From NCBI GenBank assembly GCA_021651055.1, contig JAJHOH010000001.1, forward strand, positions 3,472,001 through 3,536,000: 64,000 nt of DNA. The letters are read 5' to 3'. Shown here in pieces: positions 6,546 through 64,000 of the stretch (the first letter of the stretch is position 1; each line of letters begins with the position of its first letter). The notes beneath the pieces are model-generated. The model was not told the DNA's origin. It worked only from the letters and a program-made list of their open reading frames with translations, and did not search any database. The translations under genes were made by a program, and so were the position numbers. Source of the stretch: Candidatus Manganitrophus morganii. Its GTDB lineage: Bacteria > Nitrospirota > Nitrospiria > SBBL01 > Manganitrophaceae.

Positions 6546-6941
6546 ATGAGGATAACCTTCGCTCCGTCTCAAAAATATTCCATTCTCCTTTTCCTGATCG
6601 TTTGGTTCTGGGTTTGGGGAATCTGTCCGTGGAATAGTTCCGCTCCCGTGGCCCAGGCCATGGAAGCAGCCCAAGCCCAACACGGCCATCAAGAGATGGA
6701 TGATACCCATCATGCCTCCAAAGGGACAGAGCATTCCTGTTCAGGGTCGATCTTTTATGGTTTTAAATCACGAAACGATCGACCACAGGATCATGTTTCA
6801 ATTCAGCCTGTTTTTCTTTTGGCAGATCCGGTTGTGCCCATTGTTGAAATAGAATATTTTCTAACCCCCCTTCTTCAAAGAAGGACCCTTCCTAAATTGC
6901 TTGCCGAATATTATCAGCTCTACTCGGTTTACCGGATTTAA
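6546..6941 (+). CDS. His-rich exported small protein, copy 2 of 3
   Basis: A 131-residue member of the His-rich family. The hydrophobic head ILLFLIVWFWVWGICPW is followed by AAQAQHGHQEMDDTHHASKG, TEHSCSGSIFYG, a variable middle and the tail RRTLPKLLAEYYQLYSVYRI. The first residues (MRITFAPSQKY) match copy 3 (MTLPSQKY), which supports the ATG at 6546 although the ribosome site is weak. Copy 2 stands alone: no barrel gene follows, unlike the context of copies 1 and 3. Head, His block and tail are all kept, so it is probably functional. The role is not known; metal binding is inferred from composition. Confidence 0.68.
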   Translation: MRITFAPSQKYSILLFLIVWFWVWGICPWNSSAPVAQAMEAAQAQHGHQEMDDTHHASKGTEHSCSGSIFYGFKSRNDRPQDHVSIQPVFLLADPVVPIVEIEYFLTPLLQRRTLPKLLAEYYQLYSVYRI

Positions 6942-9150: not shown

Positions 9151-9540
9151 ATGACGCTCCCCTCTCAGAAATATACAATACCTGTTCTGCTGATTGTTTG
9201 GTTTTTCATCTGGGGAATCTGTCCCTGGAACAGCTCCTCCGCCGTCGCCCAACCCGCAGAGGCCGCGCACGCTGCACACGGTCACCATGGGATGGACGAC
9301 ACGCACCATGCTTCCAAAGGGACCGAGCATTCCTGTTCGGGGGCCATCTCCTATAGTCAAAACAACCTGAAGACCGATCAGGCTCTTCTTGCCTCAAGTC
9401 CTACTCAAGTCCCTACCTTAACCGATCCGACCGTCAGCTCAAATCAGAACTCCGGGTTTTTCAAGCTTGTTATTGAAAGAAGTACCCTCCCTAAAATAAT
9501 GACCGAATTTTATCAACTCTACTCCATCTACCGAATTTAA
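9151..9540 (+). CDS. His-rich exported small protein, copy 3 of 3
   Basis: A 129-residue member of the His-rich family with the head TIPVLLIVWFFIWGICPW, the block AAHAAHGHHGMDDTHHASKG and TEHSCSGAISYS, and the tail IERSTLPKIMTEFYQLYSIYRI. It has the most His residues of the three copies. It directly precedes the intact barrel gene at 9669, matching the order of copy 1 and the degraded barrel at 2992. This points to duplication of a two-gene unit. The start follows TCGAGGTAGAAA. Cu or other metal binding is inferred from composition and the nearby copper-storage gene. Confidence 0.7.
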   Translation: MTLPSQKYTIPVLLIVWFFIWGICPWNSSSAVAQPAEAAHAAHGHHGMDDTHHASKGTEHSCSGAISYSQNNLKTDQALLASSPTQVPTLTDPTVSSNQNSGFFKLVIERSTLPKIMTEFYQLYSIYRI

Positions 9541-44059: not shown

Positions 44060-44107
44060 GCGATTTGCTTCGAAAGAGATCAGTCATTAAAAATCAAGGT
44101 GTCTATC

Positions 44108-47100
44108 ATGGTAGGGCTGAAGTACGGATTTATCGCATTCGCGGCCGTGGTCTCCTTCTCCACGGCGGTTCTTATTTTCAAGAACCGCCGTCCAAACGGT
44201 CCGCAGGCCGCCCTTTCCCTCGGCAGTTTTCTCACGTCCGGCTATCTGGTTGTCTTGCTGCTGATCGAGCGGGATCTGGATTCAGGGGCGCCGCCCGTTC
44301 CCTGGCTGAATCTTTTTCAAGGATTGATCGGTTTGATCGTATCCCTCTCCGTGATCGTGGCCGCCGTCCTTCCGCAGGCTTACGCGAAATTCCGGAGGAC
44401 GATCCTTCCTTTTTCCTCGTTGGGTTTTGTGATCTCCGGAATTTCTCTGTCCGCGCCGTTGTACTCCGATATGCTTGTCGTTCGAACCTATTCGGAGCTC
44501 TTTTTCAAGTCGGCGTTCTCTCTGCTTTTTGATCTCTACGTTCTTGCAGGTCAGCTTTTCGTTCTGTTGATCATCGCTTTCCAATACCGGATCTGTCGCT
44601 CCGAGGAAATTCCTTCTCTCGACAAACGAATCGTCAGGACCCTCGCCCGGTGGGTTGGGGTCCGGGGGGCCCTCTTCTGGATCAGCATTTGGCTGCTGAT
44701 TCAGATTCACGAGGGAGGGGCTTCGGAGAAATGGTTTGTCTTTCTGAATGCCGGTGGCAGCCTGCTCACGATGGGGATCTTTATCCATCTCGTGATCCGC
44801 CATCGCGCGTTCGATATCGAGACCGTTATCCACAAAACGGCGAGCTGGTTGATCGTCTCGTCGGTTCCCCTCGTCGCCCTGATCTGGGGGGCGACCTGGT
44901 TGAGGCCCCTGCTGGCCGAATATCCGACCTGGGCATGGGGGGCGTGGATCGGAGGAATCAGCTTCGGCGCGGCTCTGTATCTGTACGCCGCGCAGCCTGT
45001 TGTCGATCAACTCTTCGATCGGCGCAAGTACGACCTCCAAAAAACACTCGATCAGGTCGTCGGCGAATTGGCAGTCCTTCAGGCGCTCTCGCCGATGGCG
45101 CAGAAAGTCCTGGAGAAGGTGGGGAAAGTGCTCTCCGTGCAGTCGGCGGCGGCGATGCTCTTCGATTCCCGGAGCGAATCCCCACGCCTTGTGGCCGAAG
45201 GATATGGACCGATGGAGGAGATCGGGGCGATCCCGCTATTCGTACGGGAGCGGCTCCAAGGCGGATCGATCATTCAGATCGCGCCCTCCCGGTTCGCGCG
45301 TCCAGCGGAGAAAGAGGATCCAGTGGGGGCATGGCTGAAAAAGCATCAGTTTGCGCTCTGTCTTCCTCTGATCCAGAAGGGGGAACTTCTCGGCGCCATC
45401 GCCCTAGGGAGAAAGCGCAACATGAAAAGATTTTCTCAGAGGGAGACCGACTTTCTGTCGCGGATCGGCGCGGCGTCGACGATCGCCTTCTCAAATTCCC
45501 TGCTTCTGGAGCAAGTCCGGAAGCTTGACCGCCAGAAGACCGAATTCCTCTCCGATGTTGCCCATGAACTGCGTGGGCCCCTCCTCGGAATGGCCGGCAT
45601 CGCCGAGGGAATCCTGGCAAACCACGGGGCCGCGGCGCTGGAAAGTCAGCGGCGCCTGATCGAAGGCATCAGACTGACGGCTGTGGATATGAAAGATCTT
45701 GTCGATCATTTGCTGGATCTGAGCAAGATCGAAATGGGGGTGATGACGTATGATTTCCGAGAGGTCGATGTAGGGAGCGTCGTCCGTCTCGCCGTGGACC
45801 TGGCCGCGGGCGCGATCGCATCGAAGGGACTGGAGTTGGCGGTTCAGATGGACAAGCCTCTTCCGATGGTGAAAGGGGACAAGTCCCGGATTCGTCAATG
45901 CGTGACGAATCTTCTCTCGAATGCGATCAAATACACGGACCACGGCATGATCCTGGTCTCTTGTACGAGGGCCGACGAAGGGGTCCGGGTCTTTGTCGAG
46001 GATACCGGTCAGGGGATGAATCAGGAGGAGACCCGGGGCCTCTTCGCAAGGTACCGGAGAGGGGGTCAGGTGAGCGGCATTGAAGGGAGTGGCCTCGGAC
46101 TCGCGTTGACGAAAGAGATTGTCGAGGCCCATCGGGGTCGGATCGATGTGGAAAGCGAGGTCGGTCAAGGGACCCGGATCTCGATTTTCCTTCCGGAAAA
46201 TCATGCCGAAGCGCTTCAACCCGATTCGGCACTGTCCTCCGGAAGGACGGTTGGGACGGTCGATCCGATCGATAAGCCGACGAGAATAACGAATGGGATA
46301 AATGGGTCTCTCCCCAGGGCGGTGATGGGCAATGGTGAAACGCTCCTGGTCGTGGACGATTCTGAGATTGATCGGGATGTTCTTCAATCCTTCTTCGAAG
46401 CCAATGGATACCGCGTTATAACCGCTTCAAACGGAAGGGAGGCGCTCCAGCGGGTTCGTGAGGAGGGCCCGAATCTGATCATCACCGATATGGTCATGCC
46501 GAATCTCAGCGGACCGCAGCTCTGCCGGATGCTGAAGGAAAACCTCGATTCGGCATCGATCCCAATCATCATGGTGACGGCGCGCGATAACCTGGGAGAG
46601 ATGGCATTCGGGTTCCAGTTGGGCGCGGACGATTATGCCTCGAAGCCCTGCAACCTCAAGGAGCTGTCGTTGCGCGTCGCGATGCTGCTGCGGATAAACC
46701 GCATCCGAAATGACCTCGAACTGGCGAGGTCCCGCCTGATCGAGATGGAATTGATCGCCAGCTCATCCGGAACCCTGGTCCACGCGATCAAGAATCCGCT
46801 GGGTCTGATTCAGAACTATATCAAGATCGTCGGAGCCGAAATGGCTCGGGCCAATCACGAGAAGGCGCAAGAGGGGCTTTCCCAAATTAATGAAGCGGCG
46901 CAGGCCATTGCCGGAATCCTACACGGCCTCCGGAGGGCCCATATCGATCCGCCGAAAATGATCAGGGTTGACCTGGCCGAGGTGGTCGAAGCCTGTATTA
47001 CAGAGCGCACCGAAGAAAGAGATACCGCAAACTATCGGATCGTCAGGCGATACGGCGAAAATCTTCCCTGTGTGGAAGGGGACCCGCTCCAACTCAGGAT

Positions 47101-47470
47101 GGCGATCGCGAACCTCATTGCAAACGCATTCGATGCGATGCCGAACGAAGGAACACTGGAAGTGATCCTTCGTTCGGCGGGGCCGGGAAGCGTGGAGATT
47201 GACATTCGCGACTCCGGGACCGGGATCTCCGACAGTGTCCGGAGCAGTCTCTTTAAGCCTTTCATCACGACGAAAGTCCACGGGACCGGCCTTGGCCTCT
47301 GGACGGCAAAAAGGGTGATCGAAAACAATCATGGCGGCGAATTGTCTCTGGAGTCCGCGCCGGGAAGAGGGACGACCGCGATCGTGAGGCTCCCACTGGT
47401 CGGCCGGATGCAAACCAGTCATCAAAAAGAGGTCATCGAGCGTGGAGAAGGGCCGAATCCTGATCGTTGA
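44108..47470 (+). CDS. Hybrid sensor kinase with two kinase modules and a receiver
   Basis: A 1,120-residue protein. About nine membrane helices (residues 1-300), a GAF-like domain (about 320-455), and kinase module one with H-box SDVAHELRGPLLG, N-box NLLSNAIKY and G-boxes DTGQGM and GSGLGLAL. A receiver domain follows (LLVVDDSEIDRD; IITDMVMPN with the phospho-acceptor Asp; YASKPCN with the Lys). Then comes a second complete kinase module with H-box TLVHAIKNPLG, N-box NLIANAFDA and G-boxes DSGTGI and GTGLGLW. Two kinase cores in one chain are rare. The next gene overlaps by 29 bases, so the response regulator there is its evident partner. The ligand is unknown. Confidence 0.88.
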   Translation: MVGLKYGFIAFAAVVSFSTAVLIFKNRRPNGPQAALSLGSFLTSGYLVVLLLIERDLDSGAPPVPWLNLFQGLIGLIVSLSVIVAAVLPQAYAKFRRTILPFSSLGFVISGISLSAPLYSDMLVVRTYSELFFKSAFSLLFDLYVLAGQLFVLLIIAFQYRICRSEEIPSLDKRIVRTLARWVGVRGALFWISIWLLIQIHEGGASEKWFVFLNAGGSLLTMGIFIHLVIRHRAFDIETVIHKTASWLIVSSVPLVALIWGATWLRPLLAEYPTWAWGAWIGGISFGAALYLYAAQPVVDQLFDRRKYDLQKTLDQVVGELAVLQALSPMAQKVLEKVGKVLSVQSAAAMLFDSRSESPRLVAEGYGPMEEIGAIPLFVRERLQGGSIIQIAPSRFARPAEKEDPVGAWLKKHQFALCLPLIQKGELLGAIALGRKRNMKRFSQRETDFLSRIGAASTIAFSNSLLLEQVRKLDRQKTEFLSDVAHELRGPLLGMAGIAEGILANHGAAALESQRRLIEGIRLTAVDMKDLVDHLLDLSKIEMGVMTYDFREVDVGSVVRLAVDLAAGAIASKGLELAVQMDKPLPMVKGDKSRIRQCVTNLLSNAIKYTDHGMILVSCTRADEGVRVFVEDTGQGMNQEETRGLFARYRRGGQVSGIEGSGLGLALTKEIVEAHRGRIDVESEVGQGTRISIFLPENHAEALQPDSALSSGRTVGTVDPIDKPTRITNGINGSLPRAVMGNGETLLVVDDSEIDRDVLQSFFEANGYRVITASNGREALQRVREEGPNLIITDMVMPNLSGPQLCRMLKENLDSASIPIIMVTARDNLGEMAFGFQLGADDYASKPCNLKELSLRVAMLLRINRIRNDLELARSRLIEMELIASSSGTLVHAIKNPLGLIQNYIKIVGAEMARANHEKAQEGLSQINEAAQAIAGILHGLRRAHIDPPKMIRVDLAEVVEACITERTEERDTANYRIVRRYGENLPCVEGDPLQLRMAIANLIANAFDAMPNEGTLEVILRSAGPGSVEIDIRDSGTGISDSVRSSLFKPFITTKVHGTGLGLWTAKRVIENNHGGELSLESAPGRGTTAIVRLPLVGRMQTSHQKEVIERGEGPNPDR

Positions 47471-48869
47471 GGACGATCCGAGCTATGTCAAACTCTACCG
47501 CAACGCCCTTGGAACGAGCGGCTACGCGATAGAGGTCGCTAGGGAGCCGTCGGCCGGGTTGCGCGCCCTCCGAGAAAGAACCCCCGATCTGGTGCTTCTC
47601 GATCTGACGTTCGACGGGACGCCGCAGGGAGGCTTGGGCTTCATTTCCGGCGCGTTGCAGGACCGGACCGATCTTTCGATCATTATCATCAGCGCCCAGA
47701 GCGACAGCGCGATGATCAACAAGGCGATCGAACTCGGGGCGGTCGACTATATTGTCAAAGATCATTCTCTCTATGAACTCCTTCCTTTCAGGATTAGCCA
47801 GGCCCTGAAGAGAATGCGCCTGGAAAAGCTGATTCAGACCCAGATCGACCTTCACAACGGATTTGCCTTCGGTCCCGGCAGGGTGATCGTCGGAAAATCT
47901 CCCAAGATGTATCAGGTCTACGCGCTGATCGAAAAGGTCGCATGGAGCCGCTCTACCGTGTTGATTCTGGGGGAGAGCGGCACCGGAAAGGAACTCGTCG
48001 CGCAGGCCATTCACGCCCGGAAAGGATCCAACGCGCCGTTTATCTCGATCGATTGCGGATCGGTTCCTGAAACGGTTTTGGAAAGCGAGCTTTTCGGGGT
48101 GAAGGCCCATTACCCGGGATTCCATAACAGAGAGCCACTGATCGGAAAAATGGAAGCGGCAAAGGAGGGAACGTTTCTCCTGGATGAAATCGGAAACATG
48201 AGTATCGGACTTCAGGCCAAGCTACTGAGGGTGCTGGAGGAGAGGAAGTTCAGGCCGCTCGGCGGCGAGGAGCTTCCTCTCCGTGCGCAGGTCATTTCCT
48301 CGACCAATATCGATTTCAAGACCGCGATTCAATCGGGAAGGTTCCGGGAAGATCTTTACTACCGTATGAATGAAGTCCGGATTGTACTGCCCCCCTTGCG
48401 GGATCGTCTGGAAGATGTCCCGCTGTTGGTCCGCCACCTCCTGGATCAACTCCGGTCTCAAACCGGGAGAGCGGTCGAGATCCTCCCGCAGGCGCTGGAT
48501 AAACTGATGGCCTATGATTGGCCGGGAAATGTTCGAGAACTGGCCAAGACCCTCCAGCGGGCGCTGATGGCCTGTCAGTCGCAGTATCTGGCGCCGAAGC
48601 ATATCGACCTTTCCCTCACGGGCAGTAAGACGCAACAACCAGAGGCGGCAGGGGACACAACTAAAGACGACGCGGAATCATTTCATCCGGTGACGGTTGG
48701 CAACTACAAGAAAATGGTCCGGGAGTATCGGAAGACGTTGTTGCGCTCGGCACTGGAACTGGCCGACGGGAACCAATCCGAGGCCGCCAGGCTCCTGGGC
48801 CTCAACAGAACTCACTTGATCCGACTGCTCGGCAGGCACGATCTCACCAAATCGGGGGAGATGGAATGA
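47442..48869 (+). CDS. AAA+ response regulator without GAFTGA (copy A)
   Basis: A 475-residue regulator: receiver domain (residues 1-120, phospho-acceptor D54 in LVLLDLTFDG, Lys in YIVKDH), AAA+ domain (Walker A GESGTGKE near 177, Walker B FLLDEIGN) and a C-terminal Fis-type HTH (NQSEAARLLGLNRTHLIRLL). Where sigma-54 activators have the GAFTGA loop, this protein reads AHYPGFHNREP (near 222-232). Without GAFTGA it should not open sigma-54 promoters in the usual way. Walker motifs and arginine finger segment (REDLYYRMNEV) are intact. It overlaps the sensor kinase gene, so that kinase probably phosphorylates it. Confidence 0.88.
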   Translation: MEKGRILIVEDDPSYVKLYRNALGTSGYAIEVAREPSAGLRALRERTPDLVLLDLTFDGTPQGGLGFISGALQDRTDLSIIIISAQSDSAMINKAIELGAVDYIVKDHSLYELLPFRISQALKRMRLEKLIQTQIDLHNGFAFGPGRVIVGKSPKMYQVYALIEKVAWSRSTVLILGESGTGKELVAQAIHARKGSNAPFISIDCGSVPETVLESELFGVKAHYPGFHNREPLIGKMEAAKEGTFLLDEIGNMSIGLQAKLLRVLEERKFRPLGGEELPLRAQVISSTNIDFKTAIQSGRFREDLYYRMNEVRIVLPPLRDRLEDVPLLVRHLLDQLRSQTGRAVEILPQALDKLMAYDWPGNVRELAKTLQRALMACQSQYLAPKHIDLSLTGSKTQQPEAAGDTTKDDAESFHPVTVGNYKKMVREYRKTLLRSALELADGNQSEAARLLGLNRTHLIRLLGRHDLTKSGEME

Positions 48870-49006: not shown

Positions 49007-50446
49007 TTAGCCATCTATTGAACCTGCGTACCTATTCTGTTCGTTCGGCTGCGGTTTGCCGTCAGTCTTTTTCCGCAGACCGTATTTCTTCATCTTCCAG
49101 ATCAGGTTTGTCCTGGTGAGCTTGAGTTTCTCAGCCGCCTTCGTCTGGTTCCATCCCGACCCTTCAAGCGTCTTTAAGAGGACCTCCTTTTCGTAGCCAT
49201 TTACTTGTCGATGGAGATCTTCTAATGAGAGATCGTCCGGGGCTGTTGCATCTACCCCCCGTCCCTCGAGAGCACTTGAAGGCAGGTCAAAATACCCCGA
49301 TGCCAAATACCGTGATGGATAGAGGGTCAGGGCTCGTTGAAGGGTATGGAAAAGCTCCCGGATATTCCCCGGCCAGTGATATTCTGTGAGTCTATCCATT
49401 GCTTGCGGCAGAACCTCTACCTTTCGGCCAGATTGTTTTTCATGCCGGTCCAAATAGTATCGCACGAGCAATGGAATATCTTCTTTCCGCTGATGGAGCG
49501 GAGGAAGAACGATCTTAACCGCATTCAGTCGATAATACAGGTCATTTCGAAAACGACCCTCATCGATTGCAGAGTCCATATCTACGTTTGTGGAAGCGAC
49601 GACTTGCGCCCGAAGTGGAACCGGCTTCTCGCGGCCCAGCGGCCTGAACTCCCTTTCCTGAAGGACCCGTAATAAAGAGGCTTGCAGATCCACGTTCATG
49701 TTTCCGATCTCATCCAGCAGAAGCGTGCCGGCGCCGGCGACTTCCAGTTTTCCGACCAGCCTCTCTTTGTTGTGCATGCCGGGATAATTCTCTCGAACGC
49801 CAAACAATTCGCTCTCCAGGAGCGTCTTCGGAATACATCCGCAATCAATCGAGACAAAAGGGGTCTGTTCCTCTTTCCGGGCATGAATGGCTTGGGCGAT
49901 GAGCTCTTTGCCGGCGCCGCTCTCCCCCAGGATGAGCGTCGAGGAGCGATCATCGGCAACCTTTTGAATGAGTTTATAGACACGCCACATGCTCTGCGAT
50001 TTGCCGATGATCATACGGCCGGGCCCGATAGCCAAGCCTCCGTCCTTTTCCACGCTTGTCTTAAGACGAATCTCATCCTCCATTTTTTCTATTATTTTTT
50101 GCATAGGAGATTCGATCCGGTCGGGAGAGGGCTTGACGAGGTAGTCTGCGGCGCCTCGATCCAAGGCTTTATTGATTATTTTCGCGTTATCCTCGCTGCT
50201 GACGACGATAATGGTTAAATTGGGTCGCTCCAGCAGGGCCTCTTCTATGAAACAGATCCCCTCGTCAGAGCTGCCGTTGAGTTTGATCTCTGTAAAAACC
50301 GCCTGGGGATTCTTTCTCGTTAAAAGACTCAGGCCGCTTTTTCGCCCCGATGCCACCATGACGTGATAACCCGCCTGTCCTAATATTTTTTGATATATCT
50401 TGCAGAAAGCCGGATCCTCATCAAGGATCATGATCACCTTATCCAT
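49007..50446 (-). CDS. AAA+ response regulator without GAFTGA (copy B), Glu at the phospho-site
   Basis: A 479-residue sister of the 47442 regulator with the same order: receiver (1-120), AAA+ (Walker A GESGAGKE, Walker B LLLDEIGN) and Fis-type HTH (WNQTKAAEKLKLTRTNLIWK). The GAFTGA position reads ENYPGMHNKER, like copy A. At the phospho-acceptor position, where copy A has D54, this protein has E53 (AVFTEIKLNG); D9/D11 and the Lys in YLVKPS are kept. Glu can mimic phospho-Asp, so it may be always active or controlled in another way. The gene is convergent with copy A and has no kinase beside it. Confidence 0.88.
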   Translation of the reverse strand: MDKVIMILDEDPAFCKIYQKILGQAGYHVMVASGRKSGLSLLTRKNPQAVFTEIKLNGSSDEGICFIEEALLERPNLTIIVVSSEDNAKIINKALDRGAADYLVKPSPDRIESPMQKIIEKMEDEIRLKTSVEKDGGLAIGPGRMIIGKSQSMWRVYKLIQKVADDRSSTLILGESGAGKELIAQAIHARKEEQTPFVSIDCGCIPKTLLESELFGVRENYPGMHNKERLVGKLEVAGAGTLLLDEIGNMNVDLQASLLRVLQEREFRPLGREKPVPLRAQVVASTNVDMDSAIDEGRFRNDLYYRLNAVKIVLPPLHQRKEDIPLLVRYYLDRHEKQSGRKVEVLPQAMDRLTEYHWPGNIRELFHTLQRALTLYPSRYLASGYFDLPSSALEGRGVDATAPDDLSLEDLHRQVNGYEKEVLLKTLEGSGWNQTKAAEKLKLTRTNLIWKMKKYGLRKKTDGKPQPNEQNRYAGSIDG

Positions 50447-50830: not shown

Positions 50831-52063
50831 TCAATTTGAAAATGCGCTATGTGTGTTCAGCGGCAGCTCTCGCTCCCGGGCCAGCCGTTTGAGCACGCTG
50901 GTAAAGAAGCGGGCCCGGGAGGTCCGGATCTGGCCGCGACGGTCCGCATCCTTGGTCTCGGAGAGGGCGCAATAAATGAGCGCCTCCGGTAAACGACACA
51001 CCGCTTTCTCGTAGTAAGGACGGCTGTGCCGGTCATTCGTGAAATCGAGGATCTGTTCGACCAGATCGAGCTGTTTCGGATCAACACCTTCGATGGGGAG
51101 GGCTATTGTCGGTCTTTTCTTCACGATCAGCTTGTAATCTTTTCCGTCCTTTGTCCTGGCCATCGCCAGTTGGAGTATCCCGGTCGAGACCGGCTTCCCC
51201 TCAAGCTCCTCGATCGCGCGCCGGATCAATCGGAGCCGCTCGGAGGGCCAGATGTATTTTCCGCGAACGGAGAGATCTTCTTCTAAGAGTAGAGCGGAGC
51301 GGCGCTGCCAGGTAAACTTATCGGCCATCACCACATCGAGAAAGGAGTAGAGGGAGAGGGCGATCTCTCCACGAATCTCCATCACGACATCGACCAGAAT
51401 CGGTTTTGTATGTTGCCGCAACAGGTTCTTCTCGATCTGCTCATTGAAGCGGAAATAGCTCACCCCCTCGTAACCCTCGTTTCTGGATTGAAAATTCCGT
51501 GACTCATAAATTCTCAGTCGGGAGAGGAGGTTAATCGGCTCCTCAAAGAAATGGTGGCGGCCGGCGTCCTTATCGAAGAAGGAGTATTGCCAGGTGATCG
51601 GGACCTTCCGCAGGGATCGAAGCGACCGTTTCAGAAGCGACAACTGTTTCTTCCCCCATCCCAGCTTCATGGTACGGGCCAGTTCCCTCAAGCTGATGGC
51701 GGTCCACCCTTCCACTAGATCTCGGGGGCGCTCCCACCAGAGCTTTTGAAGGGTCAGGTAGGTCCGATAGTCGAAGGTGTTCAGGATCTGCCGATCGACC
51801 GGTTCGACCAGAATCTTGGCCAAGGCCTTCTTCCCCTTGATGTCGATCACCCACGTCTTCACCCGGGCAAGGACGCCATTCCGCGCATGGGAGGGGGTGA
51901 AGATAAACGAGGAGAACTTTGCAATGTTCAACTCGACCGGGAGGAGATCCTGATTGTCGATGAGACCGGAAATCAGGGGGGCCCCCAAGTTTTTTCCGTT
52001 CCCACCCGCCTTGTGATCCACCAGAATTGTCTCGCGGTCTGTCTCGGGTTTGATGAAGTTCAA
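50831..52063 (-). CDS. Plasmid replication initiator-like protein (Rep)
   Basis: A 410-residue basic protein without signal or membrane segments. The N-terminal half (FIFTPSHARNGVLARVKTWV, then DYRTYLTLQKLWWERP, ISLRELARTMKLGWGKKQLS) looks like the first winged-helix unit of plasmid Rep proteins. The second half (IALSLYSFLDVVMADKFTWQ) is compatible with a second unit. I cannot assign a named family with certainty; RPA/TrfA-type initiators are the nearest idea. The decisive support is place: an array of five iterons and a DnaA box lie directly upstream, as in iteron plasmids. The start codon is TTG 52063 (or ATT 52066) with only a distant AAGGCGG, which would keep expression low. Confidence 0.72.
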   Translation of the reverse strand: MNFIKPETDRETILVDHKAGGNGKNLGAPLISGLIDNQDLLPVELNIAKFSSFIFTPSHARNGVLARVKTWVIDIKGKKALAKILVEPVDRQILNTFDYRTYLTLQKLWWERPRDLVEGWTAISLRELARTMKLGWGKKQLSLLKRSLRSLRKVPITWQYSFFDKDAGRHHFFEEPINLLSRLRIYESRNFQSRNEGYEGVSYFRFNEQIEKNLLRQHTKPILVDVVMEIRGEIALSLYSFLDVVMADKFTWQRRSALLLEEDLSVRGKYIWPSERLRLIRRAIEELEGKPVSTGILQLAMARTKDGKDYKLIVKKRPTIALPIEGVDPKQLDLVEQILDFTNDRHSRPYYEKAVCRLPEALIYCALSETKDADRRGQIRTSRARFFTSVLKRLARERELPLNTHSAFSN

Positions 52064-52086
52064 AATACCGTTTGGCCCGCCTTAAA

Positions 52087-52127
52087 AAGCGTTAACGCTT
52101 AATATTTAAAACCGTTAAACGCTTAAA
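52087..52127. promoter_or_regulatory. Palindrome and repeated half sites in front of rep
   Basis: AAGCGTTAACGCTT (52087-52100) is a perfect 14-bp palindrome about 24 bp before the rep start. A related GTTAAACGCTTAAA follows at 52114-52127. Such sites between iterons and rep are usually the operator where Rep dimers shut down their own gene. Confidence 0.6.
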
Positions 52128-52192
52128 TAAAACGCTCCGCTCACCAAAAATGCCATTACCATCTGTTTATTCAATGCCTTGGAATTCCGCTT

Positions 52193-52379
52193 CCTGCATG
52201 AAGTACACCAGCGGCCTGCACAAAGTACACCGGGAGAATCCGCATTCCTGCATGAAGTACACCACCTGACCTGTACAAAGTACACCAGGCAAACCCTGAT
52301 CCCCCAAAACTGTGGATAAGTGAAAAAACGAATGATATCTCATCTGCTTTGGGGGGATGCCTCCTGCACAAAGTACACC
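52193..52379. other. Iteron array: likely plasmid origin of replication (oriV)
   Basis: Five direct repeats of CCTGCATGAAGTACACC or close variants: 52193-52209, 52215-52231, 52247-52263, 52270-52286 and 52363-52379. All share CCTG-x-A-x-x-AAGTACACC. The first four start 22, 32 and 23 bp apart, close to whole helical turns; the fifth lies 93 bp on. A perfect DnaA box sits between numbers 4 and 5. This is the classic layout of an iteron origin beside its rep gene. The short open frame across the array on the minus strand is only the repeats read as protein. Confidence 0.85.
52311..52319 (-). other. DnaA box within the iteron origin
   Basis: TGTGGATAA is the exact complement of the strict DnaA box TTATCCACA. 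It lies between iterons 4 and 5 and supports host-DnaA-assisted opening. Confidence 0.75.
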
Positions 52380-52518
52380 GGAGCGCTGATCGGCGGGATC
52401 GGTCCACGCAACCATTGATTTCACTTTCGTCATGCCAGTCCCTCTTTTCAAAACGACCACTTTACCAGAGGATAGCGTGATGGTCCCTGTTGGATGAGGA
52501 TCAAATCGAATCGATTTC

Positions 52519-52776
52519 TCACCTCTCCGAGGTGGAGGCTTTGAGATGTTGCTCGATCCAGTCGGTGAGATCGCGCCTCCTGTACCGGACACATCTCTTC
52601 GAGATCCGGACGAACTTCGGACCATTTCCTGTAAAGCGCCAGGACTGAAGGGTCTTTTCCGACACTTTGAGAAACTGCGCTGCCTGCCTCTCCACATAGA
52701 GTTCATCCGGATCCAAATCCATGACCTTCAGTCTCAGACGCTCCAAATCCTCCGGTACGATTTCCGCTTCAGACAT
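52519..52776 (-). CDS. Excisionase/MerR-type small HTH protein
   Basis: An 85-residue protein: an acidic head followed by the helix-turn-helix LYVERQAAQFLKVSEKTLQS, then WRFTGNGPKFVRISKRCVRY and RRRDLTDWIEQHLKAS. This is the pattern of HTH_17/excisionase-like proteins, which bind DNA as recombination directionality factors or as small plasmid regulators. ATG 52776 follows GGAGGTCCC; a longer in-frame start at 52833 is rejected for lack of a ribosome site. It lies between the origin and a gap on the minus strand. No integrase is seen in the window. Confidence 0.8.
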   Translation of the reverse strand: MSEAEIVPEDLERLRLKVMDLDPDELYVERQAAQFLKVSEKTLQSWRFTGNGPKFVRISKRCVRYRRRDLTDWIEQHLKASTSER

Positions 52777-53380
52777 GGGACCTCCGTTACATTCTTCCAC
52801 CCGTCCTGCGGAACGATATTCCCCTATGGCCATTGGACGGGCCGAATAAGTAATCCATTGGCGCTTTGATCTATCGCAACTTATGTGCCCAAATGGAAGA
52901 GCCGACGATTCGATACCAATTCGGAGTTCGAGTGGTCAAAAGCTCACAGATAGTCAATCGCTTAGGGGGAACGAGGATTCAAGAGGATTCAGGACGAAGA
53001 AGGAATGTGATGTCTGATGCGTCTCTCATCGGGATCATAACTCGGAGACACCTGACGCGAAGAGGCAACAGATCATGATGTTGATCTATAAGACGATATC
53101 AGAATAAGGAGGGATTGATAACACCTACAACTATAAATGCCCTTAAACTTCCGGAAAATTACTGATCGCAGAAAAAACCAGCGCATCTCGTGCATCACTG
53201 TGGGCGGTTCGAGTCGTCTCCTGGACCTCAAGAAAACGATATTAGCAAAAGCTCGTATTTTTTGTTAGTATCTAACATCATTAGAATAATTCAGATGGAT
53301 CTAGGCCTAGAATGAGGACGACGGCCGATCCAGGGATAGTCTCAAGCGGAGCCAATGATTAATATTACTTTCACTTCCAA
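52777..53380. other. 600-bp gap with few signs
   Basis: No gene is convincing here. A 70-codon frame at 52866 lacks a ribosome site and any recognisable fold. The right end carries the probable promoter of the MFS gene (53262-53290), listed separately. AGGAGGGATTGATA near 53107 looks like a ribosome site but leads to no sizeable frame. Confidence 0.5.
53262..53290 (+). promoter_or_regulatory. Possible regulated promoter of the MFS gene
   Basis: TTGTTA (53262-53267) and AATAAT (53285-53290) with a 17-bp spacer. The dyad TGTTAG-TAT-CTAACA (53263-53277) lies over the -35. Both are about 90-120 bp before the start codon. Confidence 0.4.
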
Positions 53381-54583: not shown

Positions 54584-55376
54584 AATCCGCCGATTTCATT
54601 CACAGATTTTCACGTTGCTGCTTGCTGTTGTCGCTTAATTTGGAATATTGATCTTCTGATTTGAACTCCTCCTTCTCAAAGATATCGGCCAAAGAAGATT
54701 GGGAGCGCTACTTTGGCCAAAAAAAGCGATTCTCTTCTAACCGCCACTTCCCTTTCCCAGGATTGATTAATCCCGATTGAAACAAAGTGTGTTTTGAAAC
54801 GTTCGAAACTATTTATTTCAGGAAGAAGTATCTGAAAAATGAAATCATGATTTTTACAACTAAGGAAATTGCGGACCACAACCAGGATTCCTGCCTTCCC
54901 CCCCCTAAAAATAGAAATTCCTTCCACCGGGACCACTTCGACTAGGGTTTTCATTATTCATTACGGCGGCTCCGTTCGCAGCATACGACACCATCATATC
55001 GGCGATTGACTCCGAACCACTGTCAGTCTTCCTGACACTGTCAGGATTCCTGACATCCCCTCATTAGTATCCCAAAATAGACTATTATGACACGTTAACG
55101 TATGGAACGATAAGGAAGTCTCTTCAAGGGTGGGCTGGATCGATTGCCTCACGCCACTGTCAGGATTCCTGACACCTCTTTTAAAAAGAGATATTTCTCT
55201 CGCCGGTACCACTGCAGATTTGGATAGTAAAAGTCGCGCGCGTATGCAATCCGGTTCAGAATTCCCATCATTGAGGATGGTTTGGATCGTCCCCACAAAT
55301 CGATTCGGTACAGGCATGGTTCTTGCTCATCGCCTCTACTCGTTCGAAGCAGAGAGGGATGCTCTGGAGGGGACAG
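54584..55376. other. 800-bp non-coding region before the conjugation operon
   Basis: No gene is convincingly supported. A 92-codon minus-strand frame at 54676-54954 lacks a close ribosome site and any recognisable fold. The right half carries three 17-bp dyads and the palindrome ACGTTAACGT (55092-55101). This is the likely control region of the tra operon; a transfer origin (oriT) could also lie here, but I see no nick-site motif I can name. Confidence 0.55.
55021..55174. promoter_or_regulatory. Three 17-bp dyads: likely operators of the tra operon
   Basis: TGTCAGGATTCCTGACA is a perfect dyad (8-bp arms, one central T) found at 55039-55055 and 55158-55174. A variant, TGTCAGTCTTCCTGACA, sits next to the first at 55021-55037, only one base apart. 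The palindrome ACGTTAACGT lies between them. The last copy is about 200 bp before the first conjugation gene. Tandem operators for a tra regulator are the simplest reading. Confidence 0.7.
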
Positions 55377-63010: not shown

Positions 63011-64000
63011 GGGGTTGGCTCTTGCCGCGACGCTCTTTTGGTTGTTCGCAGGGCCCGCTTTTTCCCAGCCCGATCCCAGGCAGGCCGCCCAGGATTCGGC
63101 GGATCAGGCGCTCTCGAAATTCGGCTCCCCCGAGGGCATCCGGCAGAACGCCTCCAATCCCTTGACCTCCCAAGGCGCCCTCATGACGACCATCGACAAC
63201 AAAACCTCTTTTAACGCGCAATTAACCTGTCCTTCCTCAAGCCGGTTTCTCAATGTGTTGATCTCTCCCACAATCACGGGGGATCTCTCCCCGGTCCTGA
63301 TCGGACAGGACGCCGATCTCGACGGGGCGATCGAATCGACCTACCAGCCCCCCTTCCCCATCTCGGGCGTCTGCGCCAACGGCGTCATCTCCTGCGCGCC
63401 GGGTCAGTGGGCCAGTTGCCGGTATTACCAATGGACCGCCGATAGTGGGGGAAGGGCCAATCTGCAGGAGGTCTCTCAATTAAACCTGGGAGGATGTTAC
63501 TGCGTCAACAACAGCTGCGGCGCCAACCTCGCGATGACCCATCTTCCATCGGTCCTTCAAGCCATCGGCGGGGGGGTGGTCGGCGCCATTCAGGCCAACA
63601 ATCCTAAAATGACCATTACCGACGTGAAAATCGATGGAACCGCGCTGACCTATTTCGGACAAAACGCGGGCCAGTGCACCTCGACCGGATCCTCTCCGGA
63701 GCAGTACTTCAATAATCCCGGAGGAATTTCAACTGAAGTTCAATCCCAGATCGCAATTCAATCCGTTGACCCGATGAGTCACTATGGCCTGATGACCACC
63801 CCCCCCCCGGCGTTGCAACAGAGCGCCTCCTCTCGTCAATGTGTGATCCAAAGATCAGCCGCAGTCACGTCGCAGCAGACCTTCTGCCAGAATCCGGCGC
63901 CTACCGGATCAATCGCCTCCAGGGAGGAGACCATTTACCTGAAGGTTTATGCAGGATCCAATCGATCCATCAATGACTGTCGGTGTTCCAATGTGACCGG
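62967..64000 (+). CDS. Cys-rich exported conjugation protein, 5' part (TraN-like?)
   Basis: An open frame runs from ATG 62967 (AAAGGGATGCCTT upstream) to the right edge without a stop, about 344 codons, overlapping the traC end by 44 bases. It begins with a signal peptide (LALAATLFWLFAGPAFS) and contains many Cys residues, often in pairs: GVCANGVISCAPG, ASCRYYQW, LGGCYCVNNSCG, GQCTSTGSS, RQCVIQ, TFCQNP, NDCRCSN. Large Cys-rich exported proteins of F-type systems are TraN (mating-pair stabilisation) or TraU; TraN fits best by Cys density, but the part seen is too little to be sure. A DsbC-like isomerase is encoded upstream. Confidence 0.7.
   Translation, partial: MKKPSKRWSENIGVEGLALAATLFWLFAGPAFSQPDPRQAAQDSADQALSKFGSPEGIRQNASNPLTSQGALMTTIDNKTSFNAQLTCPSSSRFLNVLISPTITGDLSPVLIGQDADLDGAIESTYQPPFPISGVCANGVISCAPGQWASCRYYQWTADSGGRANLQEVSQLNLGGCYCVNNSCGANLAMTHLPSVLQAIGGGVVGAIQANNPKMTITDVKIDGTALTYFGQNAGQCTSTGSSPEQYFNNPGGISTEVQSQIAIQSVDPMSHYGLMTTPPPALQQSASSRQCVIQRSAAVTSQQTFCQNPAPTGSIASREETIYLKVYAGSNRSINDCRCSNVT

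Follow-up and report, generated by a model that had tools for sequence, protein, structure and literature searches.

The module at positions 52064-52400 is best explained as the iteron oriV of a 228-kb plasmid-related ICE at the 3' end of a tRNA-Ala(CGC) gene, a reading to which we assign a probability of about 0.8 from sequence comparisons. The window analysed comprises 64,000 nucleotides, taken from one 4.29-Mb contig at 3472001-3536000; positions refer to the window unless the genome is named. An integrated element with an iteron oriV is known as a kind; the Rep/iteron pair and the series of plasmids and ICEs in this order are new. The dense metal-resistance block is thereby placed in a large mobile element that could, in principle, exist as a plasmid, and the host falls in the order of the manganese-oxidising Ca. 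Manganitrophus. Moreover, an initiator/iteron pair is added that the libraries used fail to name.

The repeat unit CCTGYRYRAAGTACACC is 17 bp long. In a pattern search of the window, CCTGNANNAAGTACACC was matched exactly at 52193, 52215, 52247, 52270 and 52363, in one shared orientation upstream of the 410-aa minus-strand rep gene, and the five direct repeats of the original prediction were thus all recovered. Read on the minus strand in the orientation of rep, iterons 1 and 3 (52193-52209 and 52247-52263) are GGTGTACTTCATGCAGG, iteron 2 (52215-52231) and the distal iteron 5 (52363-52379) are GGTGTACTTTGTGCAGG, and iteron 4 (52270-52286) is GGTGTACTTTGTACAGG. Five occurrences of the 8-base core AGTACACC were counted in 64 kb, where 0.26 would be expected; all lie within the same 178 bp, and a count of five was reached in no shuffled sequence. 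The full repeat is confined to these five sites in the 4.29-Mb genome; 19 weaker matches with 1-2 mismatches are not above the reversed-pattern control. Neither the 395 other Nitrospirota genomes nor the IMG/VR contigs searched contained any pair of repeats. The single-repeat pattern gave lone IMG/VR matches spread across many contigs, which were taken as chance. A search of the origin region against PLSDB (72,556 plasmids) gave no DNA match. In the original prediction the iteron had not been recognised from known incompatibility groups.

The iterons start 22, 32, 23 and 93 bp apart. Near-helical phasing, as originally proposed, is a fair description of the four proximal repeats, one of them offset by about one extra turn. 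The expected DnaA box (exact TTATCCACA, 52311-52319, minus strand) lies between repeats 4 and 5 and is enclosed by an 11-bp inverted repeat (52299-52309 and 52348-52358). The 14-bp palindrome AAGCGTTAACGCTT, also anticipated, is located at 52087-52100, 23 bp before the rep start; an imperfect second copy follows 24 bp from it, so that two palindrome-like units stand in tandem (52082-52102 and 52106-52126). This palindrome is a candidate operator of rep. Between the iterons and rep, the stretch 52082-52160 is AT-richer (0.58-0.70 per 50 bp vs about 0.46 in the window) and is a candidate melting region. Several same-direction repeats of 17-22 bp near rep, with a DnaA box and an AT-rich region alongside, are the marks of an iteron-type (theta) replicon, and all are present. 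No sigma-70-like promoter was found, and an Rfam search of the window gave no matches. A minus-strand open frame (52167-52706) also passes through the repeats; the proximal spacings are not multiples of three and the repeats fall in different frames of it, therefore a repeat protein was ruled out.

The rep gene (50831-52063, minus strand, TTG start at 52063) has no family match in Pfam, NCBIfam or PHROG, nothing meaningful among PDB sequences, and no relatives in IMG/VR. Neither Rep_3 (PF01051) nor RPA (PF10134) is among its hits at E 0.1, short of the curated cut-off of both, and Rep is therefore classed as a divergent relative within the Rep_3/RPA superfamily and not as a member of either family. 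Its identity as an initiator is indirect and comes through its relatives. The closest one, on a Ca. Sulfopaludibacter contig (L011), shares 32% identity over about 270 residues (E 2e-37) and passes the Rep3_N cut-off; more distant ones, two from the same order (L012 and L013) and one on the circular plasmid CP114559 (L010), pass the RPA cut-off. A profile of the Rep group was aligned by hhalign to RPA-type plasmid initiators with a probability of 95.7% and E 9e-9. These relationships support the Rep-like gene that had been proposed, and it is the only initiator of this kind in the genome. An AlphaFold2 model (pLDDT 34, from an alignment of only two sequences) was left unused, being too uncertain to reveal the two winged-helix domains that mark the superfamily.

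Repeats with a period of about 22 bp also lie directly upstream of the rep homologues in L010, L011, L012, L013, CP114562 and CP114554, the period being 21-22 bp in the last two. In rep orientation, L010, L011, L012 and L013 share one order, namely distal repeat(s), a spacer, the array and rep, in most cases with rep set off by an AT-rich stretch (at the matching place in L010, L012 and L013). The repeat sequences themselves differ: GGTGTACTTYRTRCAGG in the window, TGGTGCTAATGAAACG in L011, GGGGAGTTGAAAGGAA in L012 and L013, and TTGGCATAGCAAGGAA in CP114562. The spacing in the window is less regular than in these relatives. Recurrence of the layout before homologous plasmid initiators with other repeats argues for an iteron oriV, as was first suggested, and against a chance cluster. 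Position and period are kept where the sequence has diverged, which is what a co-evolving initiator and its iterons would give.

The whole window lies inside an integrated element of 228,055 bp, bounded by attL at window -107021 (genome 3364979) and attR at window 121034 (genome 3593034). The tRNA-Ala(CGC) gene occupies genome 3593036-3593111, and a perfect 49-bp copy of its 3' end lies at 3364979-3365027; a tyrosine integrase (Phage_integrase, 3e-29) is located 222 bp inside attL. In the same-genus genome G183, the flanks are about 1.3 kb apart, with nothing between them but a VapBC-like pair and a remnant of att, therefore the whole interval is an insertion relative to this near-empty site. 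An integrase, att direct repeats and such an insertion are the hallmarks of an ICE. Metal genes and conjugation genes both lie in the inserted interval, along with a cobalamin cluster. Pfam hits to type IV secretion and coupling families include TraE, TraK, TrbI, TraC, TraG_N and T4SS-DNA_transf. A homologue of a 'replication-relaxation family protein' is encoded at 83978-84820; neither a classic relaxase nor an oriT was identified in the element. The original prediction had placed the metal block in a plasmid or plasmid-derived element, and this is refined here: the element is plasmid-related, but in this assembly it is no free plasmid and sits at tRNA-Ala within a chromosome made up of one contig. 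A chromosomal assembly and a Rep from an unrelated DNA-binding family had been named beforehand as counting against a plasmid origin; the former was found, the latter was not.

Some further features of the element and its target were recorded. Extra partial copies of the tRNA-Ala 3' end occur beside attL (genome 3364820, L027) and near the VapBC-like pair of G183 (G183:C18:63679-63723), which suggests that this 3' end may be a repeatedly used integration hotspot. At a second tRNA-Ala gene (GGC; genome 26890-27113, L029), an adjoining integrase fragment of 31 profile positions is likely the remnant of another element. By reading, the cobalamin biosynthesis cluster spans window -47.5 to -32.4 kb (genome 3424500-3439600). 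A ribonucleotide reductase is encoded at 90594-92975, beyond the window in the same element, and the plasmid protein nearest to it carries a B12-dependent annotation.

The matching plasmids are 199–329-kb in size, and the backbone that they largely share with the element extends from metal genes through F-type conjugation genes to PRTRC genes. In window coordinates, most proteins encoded between about 55 and 120 kb find homologues on the circular CP114559, in collinear blocks that include the F-type T4SS, coupling protein, primase, replication-relaxation protein, helicase, ParB, PRTRC and a 1286-aa protein, the last present on CP114562 and CP114554 too. Identity is 80% or higher for several shared metal genes, and the element's second recombinase (window -105067) matches one on these plasmids with 89-92% identity. 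No homologues of the rep-adjacent ParA/ParB of the plasmids were found in the element. A sister element in G183 (contig C9, 1-154765) shares the backbone at 40-85% identity, mostly 65-85% for conjugation genes. No rep of this type was detected in it, and the matching sigma-54 gene has no cluster of repeats next to it; the module is thus not essential to this type of element.

A sensor kinase (44099-47470, plus strand) and two sigma-54 regulators (47442-48869, plus; 49007-50446, minus) have related genes next to rep on Ca. Manganitrophus plasmids; in CP114559 these are 50-60% identical and lie at 167-169.2 kb, within a few kb of the plasmid's rep. The F-type conjugation operon, assigned by Pfam, starts at 55323 on the plus strand, runs to the window end at 64000 and continues to about 78 kb; its genes encode OmpA-like, DsbC, TraE, TraK, TrbI/TraB, TraV-like and TraC proteins, with homologues on CP114559 and the G183 sister element. 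Upstream of this operon, a nearly palindromic 20-bp direct repeat, CACTGTCAGGATTCCTGACA, occurs at 55036-55055 and 55155-55174 and is possibly an operator or an oriT-related site. Small related His-rich proteins of the form HGHH...HHASKGTEHSCSG (6546-6941, 9151-9540, window -7163 and -5687) recur through the metal block and are also present in the G183 sister element.

Raw cumulative GC skew was confounded by gene orientation, and fourfold sites were compared strand by strand instead. In CP114559, the plus-strand fourfold-site skew is positive at 175-199 and 1-40 kb (beyond rep) and negative at 44-172 kb; the pattern holds for genes on both strands and therefore marks a sign change near rep. 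In the integrated element, the skew is positive on either side of rep for both gene strands. Since it does not flip at rep, the integrated copy seems to be copied passively, in a single direction, along with the chromosome, a reading of composition that is silent on oriV after excision.

The same data bear on whether the element might be a relic, that is, a former plasmid with an inactive origin that lives by chromosomal replication and conjugation only. Such a relic would fit the lack of an origin signature in GC skew at rep, the irregular iteron spacing, the absence of the related plasmids' parAB, and the module missing from the sister element. However, a silent integrated origin would yield an identical skew; moreover, the Rep frame is intact over 410 aa, the iteron cores are perfectly conserved in five copies, and the DnaA box is exact. 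We regard the relic as possible, though rather unlikely.

The gene directly upstream of the origin (52519-52833, minus strand) encodes a 104-aa AlpA/excisionase-like DNA-binding protein (Pfam HTH_17, 1.3e-8; PHROG excisionase/regulator, 2.6e-9), and two of four plasmid relatives inspected adjoin tyrosine integrases. The repeats might accordingly be operators of this protein or recombination-directionality sites instead of iterons, given the adjacent gene, its excisionase-type PHROG relatives and the integrases next to some relatives. However, the repeats of L010, L012, L013, CP114562 and CP114554 have parA/parB as their nearest annotated or read neighbours and no HTH_17 gene, and operators of HTH_17 would not be expected to give a conserved layout where that gene is not a neighbour. 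The repeats here also lie between the HTH gene and rep, together with a DnaA box and 159 kb from attL, and this explanation is improbable. Slightly less credible still is the idea that a circular plasmid was wrongly joined to the chromosome via the shared 49-bp tRNA segment, which would make the element extrachromosomal in this strain; its relatives are circular plasmids, but the att structure, the integrase position and the chromosome-like one-way GC skew fit a real integration. Ends of IS21-like or Tn7-like elements bear several phased direct repeats and so resemble the array, but the idea of terminal repeats from a decayed insertion sequence was rejected as highly improbable, with no such transposase in the adjoining ORFs, no second inverted end, no further repeat copy in the genome and no plasmid DNA match.

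For an iteron oriV carried by an ICE, we infer the following course. The initiator would bind the five iterons, the AT-rich stretch next to rep would be opened with the help of DnaA, and the host replisome would then be loaded. Its action would be limited by iteron titration or handcuffing, and possibly by repression at the palindrome. While integrated, oriV would stay off and chromosomal replication would copy the element; once the integrase has excised it, replication of the circle would be sustained from oriV until transfer or re-integration. The irregular iteron spacing could reflect decay. More tentatively, and with some doubt, the module may be a new replication-incompatibility type, a Rep subgroup with its own iteron, which is gained and lost by a conjugative backbone of the Troglogloeales; the same backbone would then be a free megaplasmid if it carries rep with parAB, and a chromosomal element if it carries another rep or none. 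If true, this would provide a natural series for studying the switch from plasmid to ICE. Related backbones as circular plasmids, as an integrated element with oriV and as a sister without it make the boundary between conjugative plasmid and integrative element testable.

Comparison with known systems shows several partial likenesses. The RPA-type (PF10134) replicons CP114559, CP114562 and CP114554 of Ca. Manganitrophus also have the initiator beside sensor-kinase and sigma-54 genes, repeats of about 22-bp period upstream, an AT-rich stretch before rep, and the conjugation/PRTRC backbone where mapped; whereas their initiators are only 22-23% identical to Rep, their iteron sequence differs, ParA/ParB genes lie beside rep, and they are recorded as free circles. 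No DnaA box was found in the CP114559 origin. The Rep_3 (PF01051) iteron plasmids, such as those with RepE of F, Pi of R6K and RepA of pPS10, share iterons, a DnaA box, an AT-rich region and a palindrome before rep, and the closest homologue (L011) passes Rep3_N; however, Rep itself is below the cut-off. Classic Rep operators resemble half-iterons, whereas the palindrome here shows no such resemblance. Among ICEs, pKLC102 has a repeat-bearing oriV. The SXT/R391 and pKLC102/PAPI-1 ICEs are likewise conjugative, with an integrase and plasmid-like replication; whereas SXT replicates via the relaxase TraI at oriT and not from an iteron oriV (PMC4489591). The integrated island SGI1 also has a rep, four 17-bp iterons and one DnaA box, with an origin that acts on the excised form, and its need for the iteron oriV in replication is a precedent for an integrated island (PMC7433901). 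SGI1 is mobilizable, has an unrelated Rep (RepA_C) and carries its oriV downstream of rep; whereas the element described here has a full conjugation system aboard and its oriV upstream of rep.
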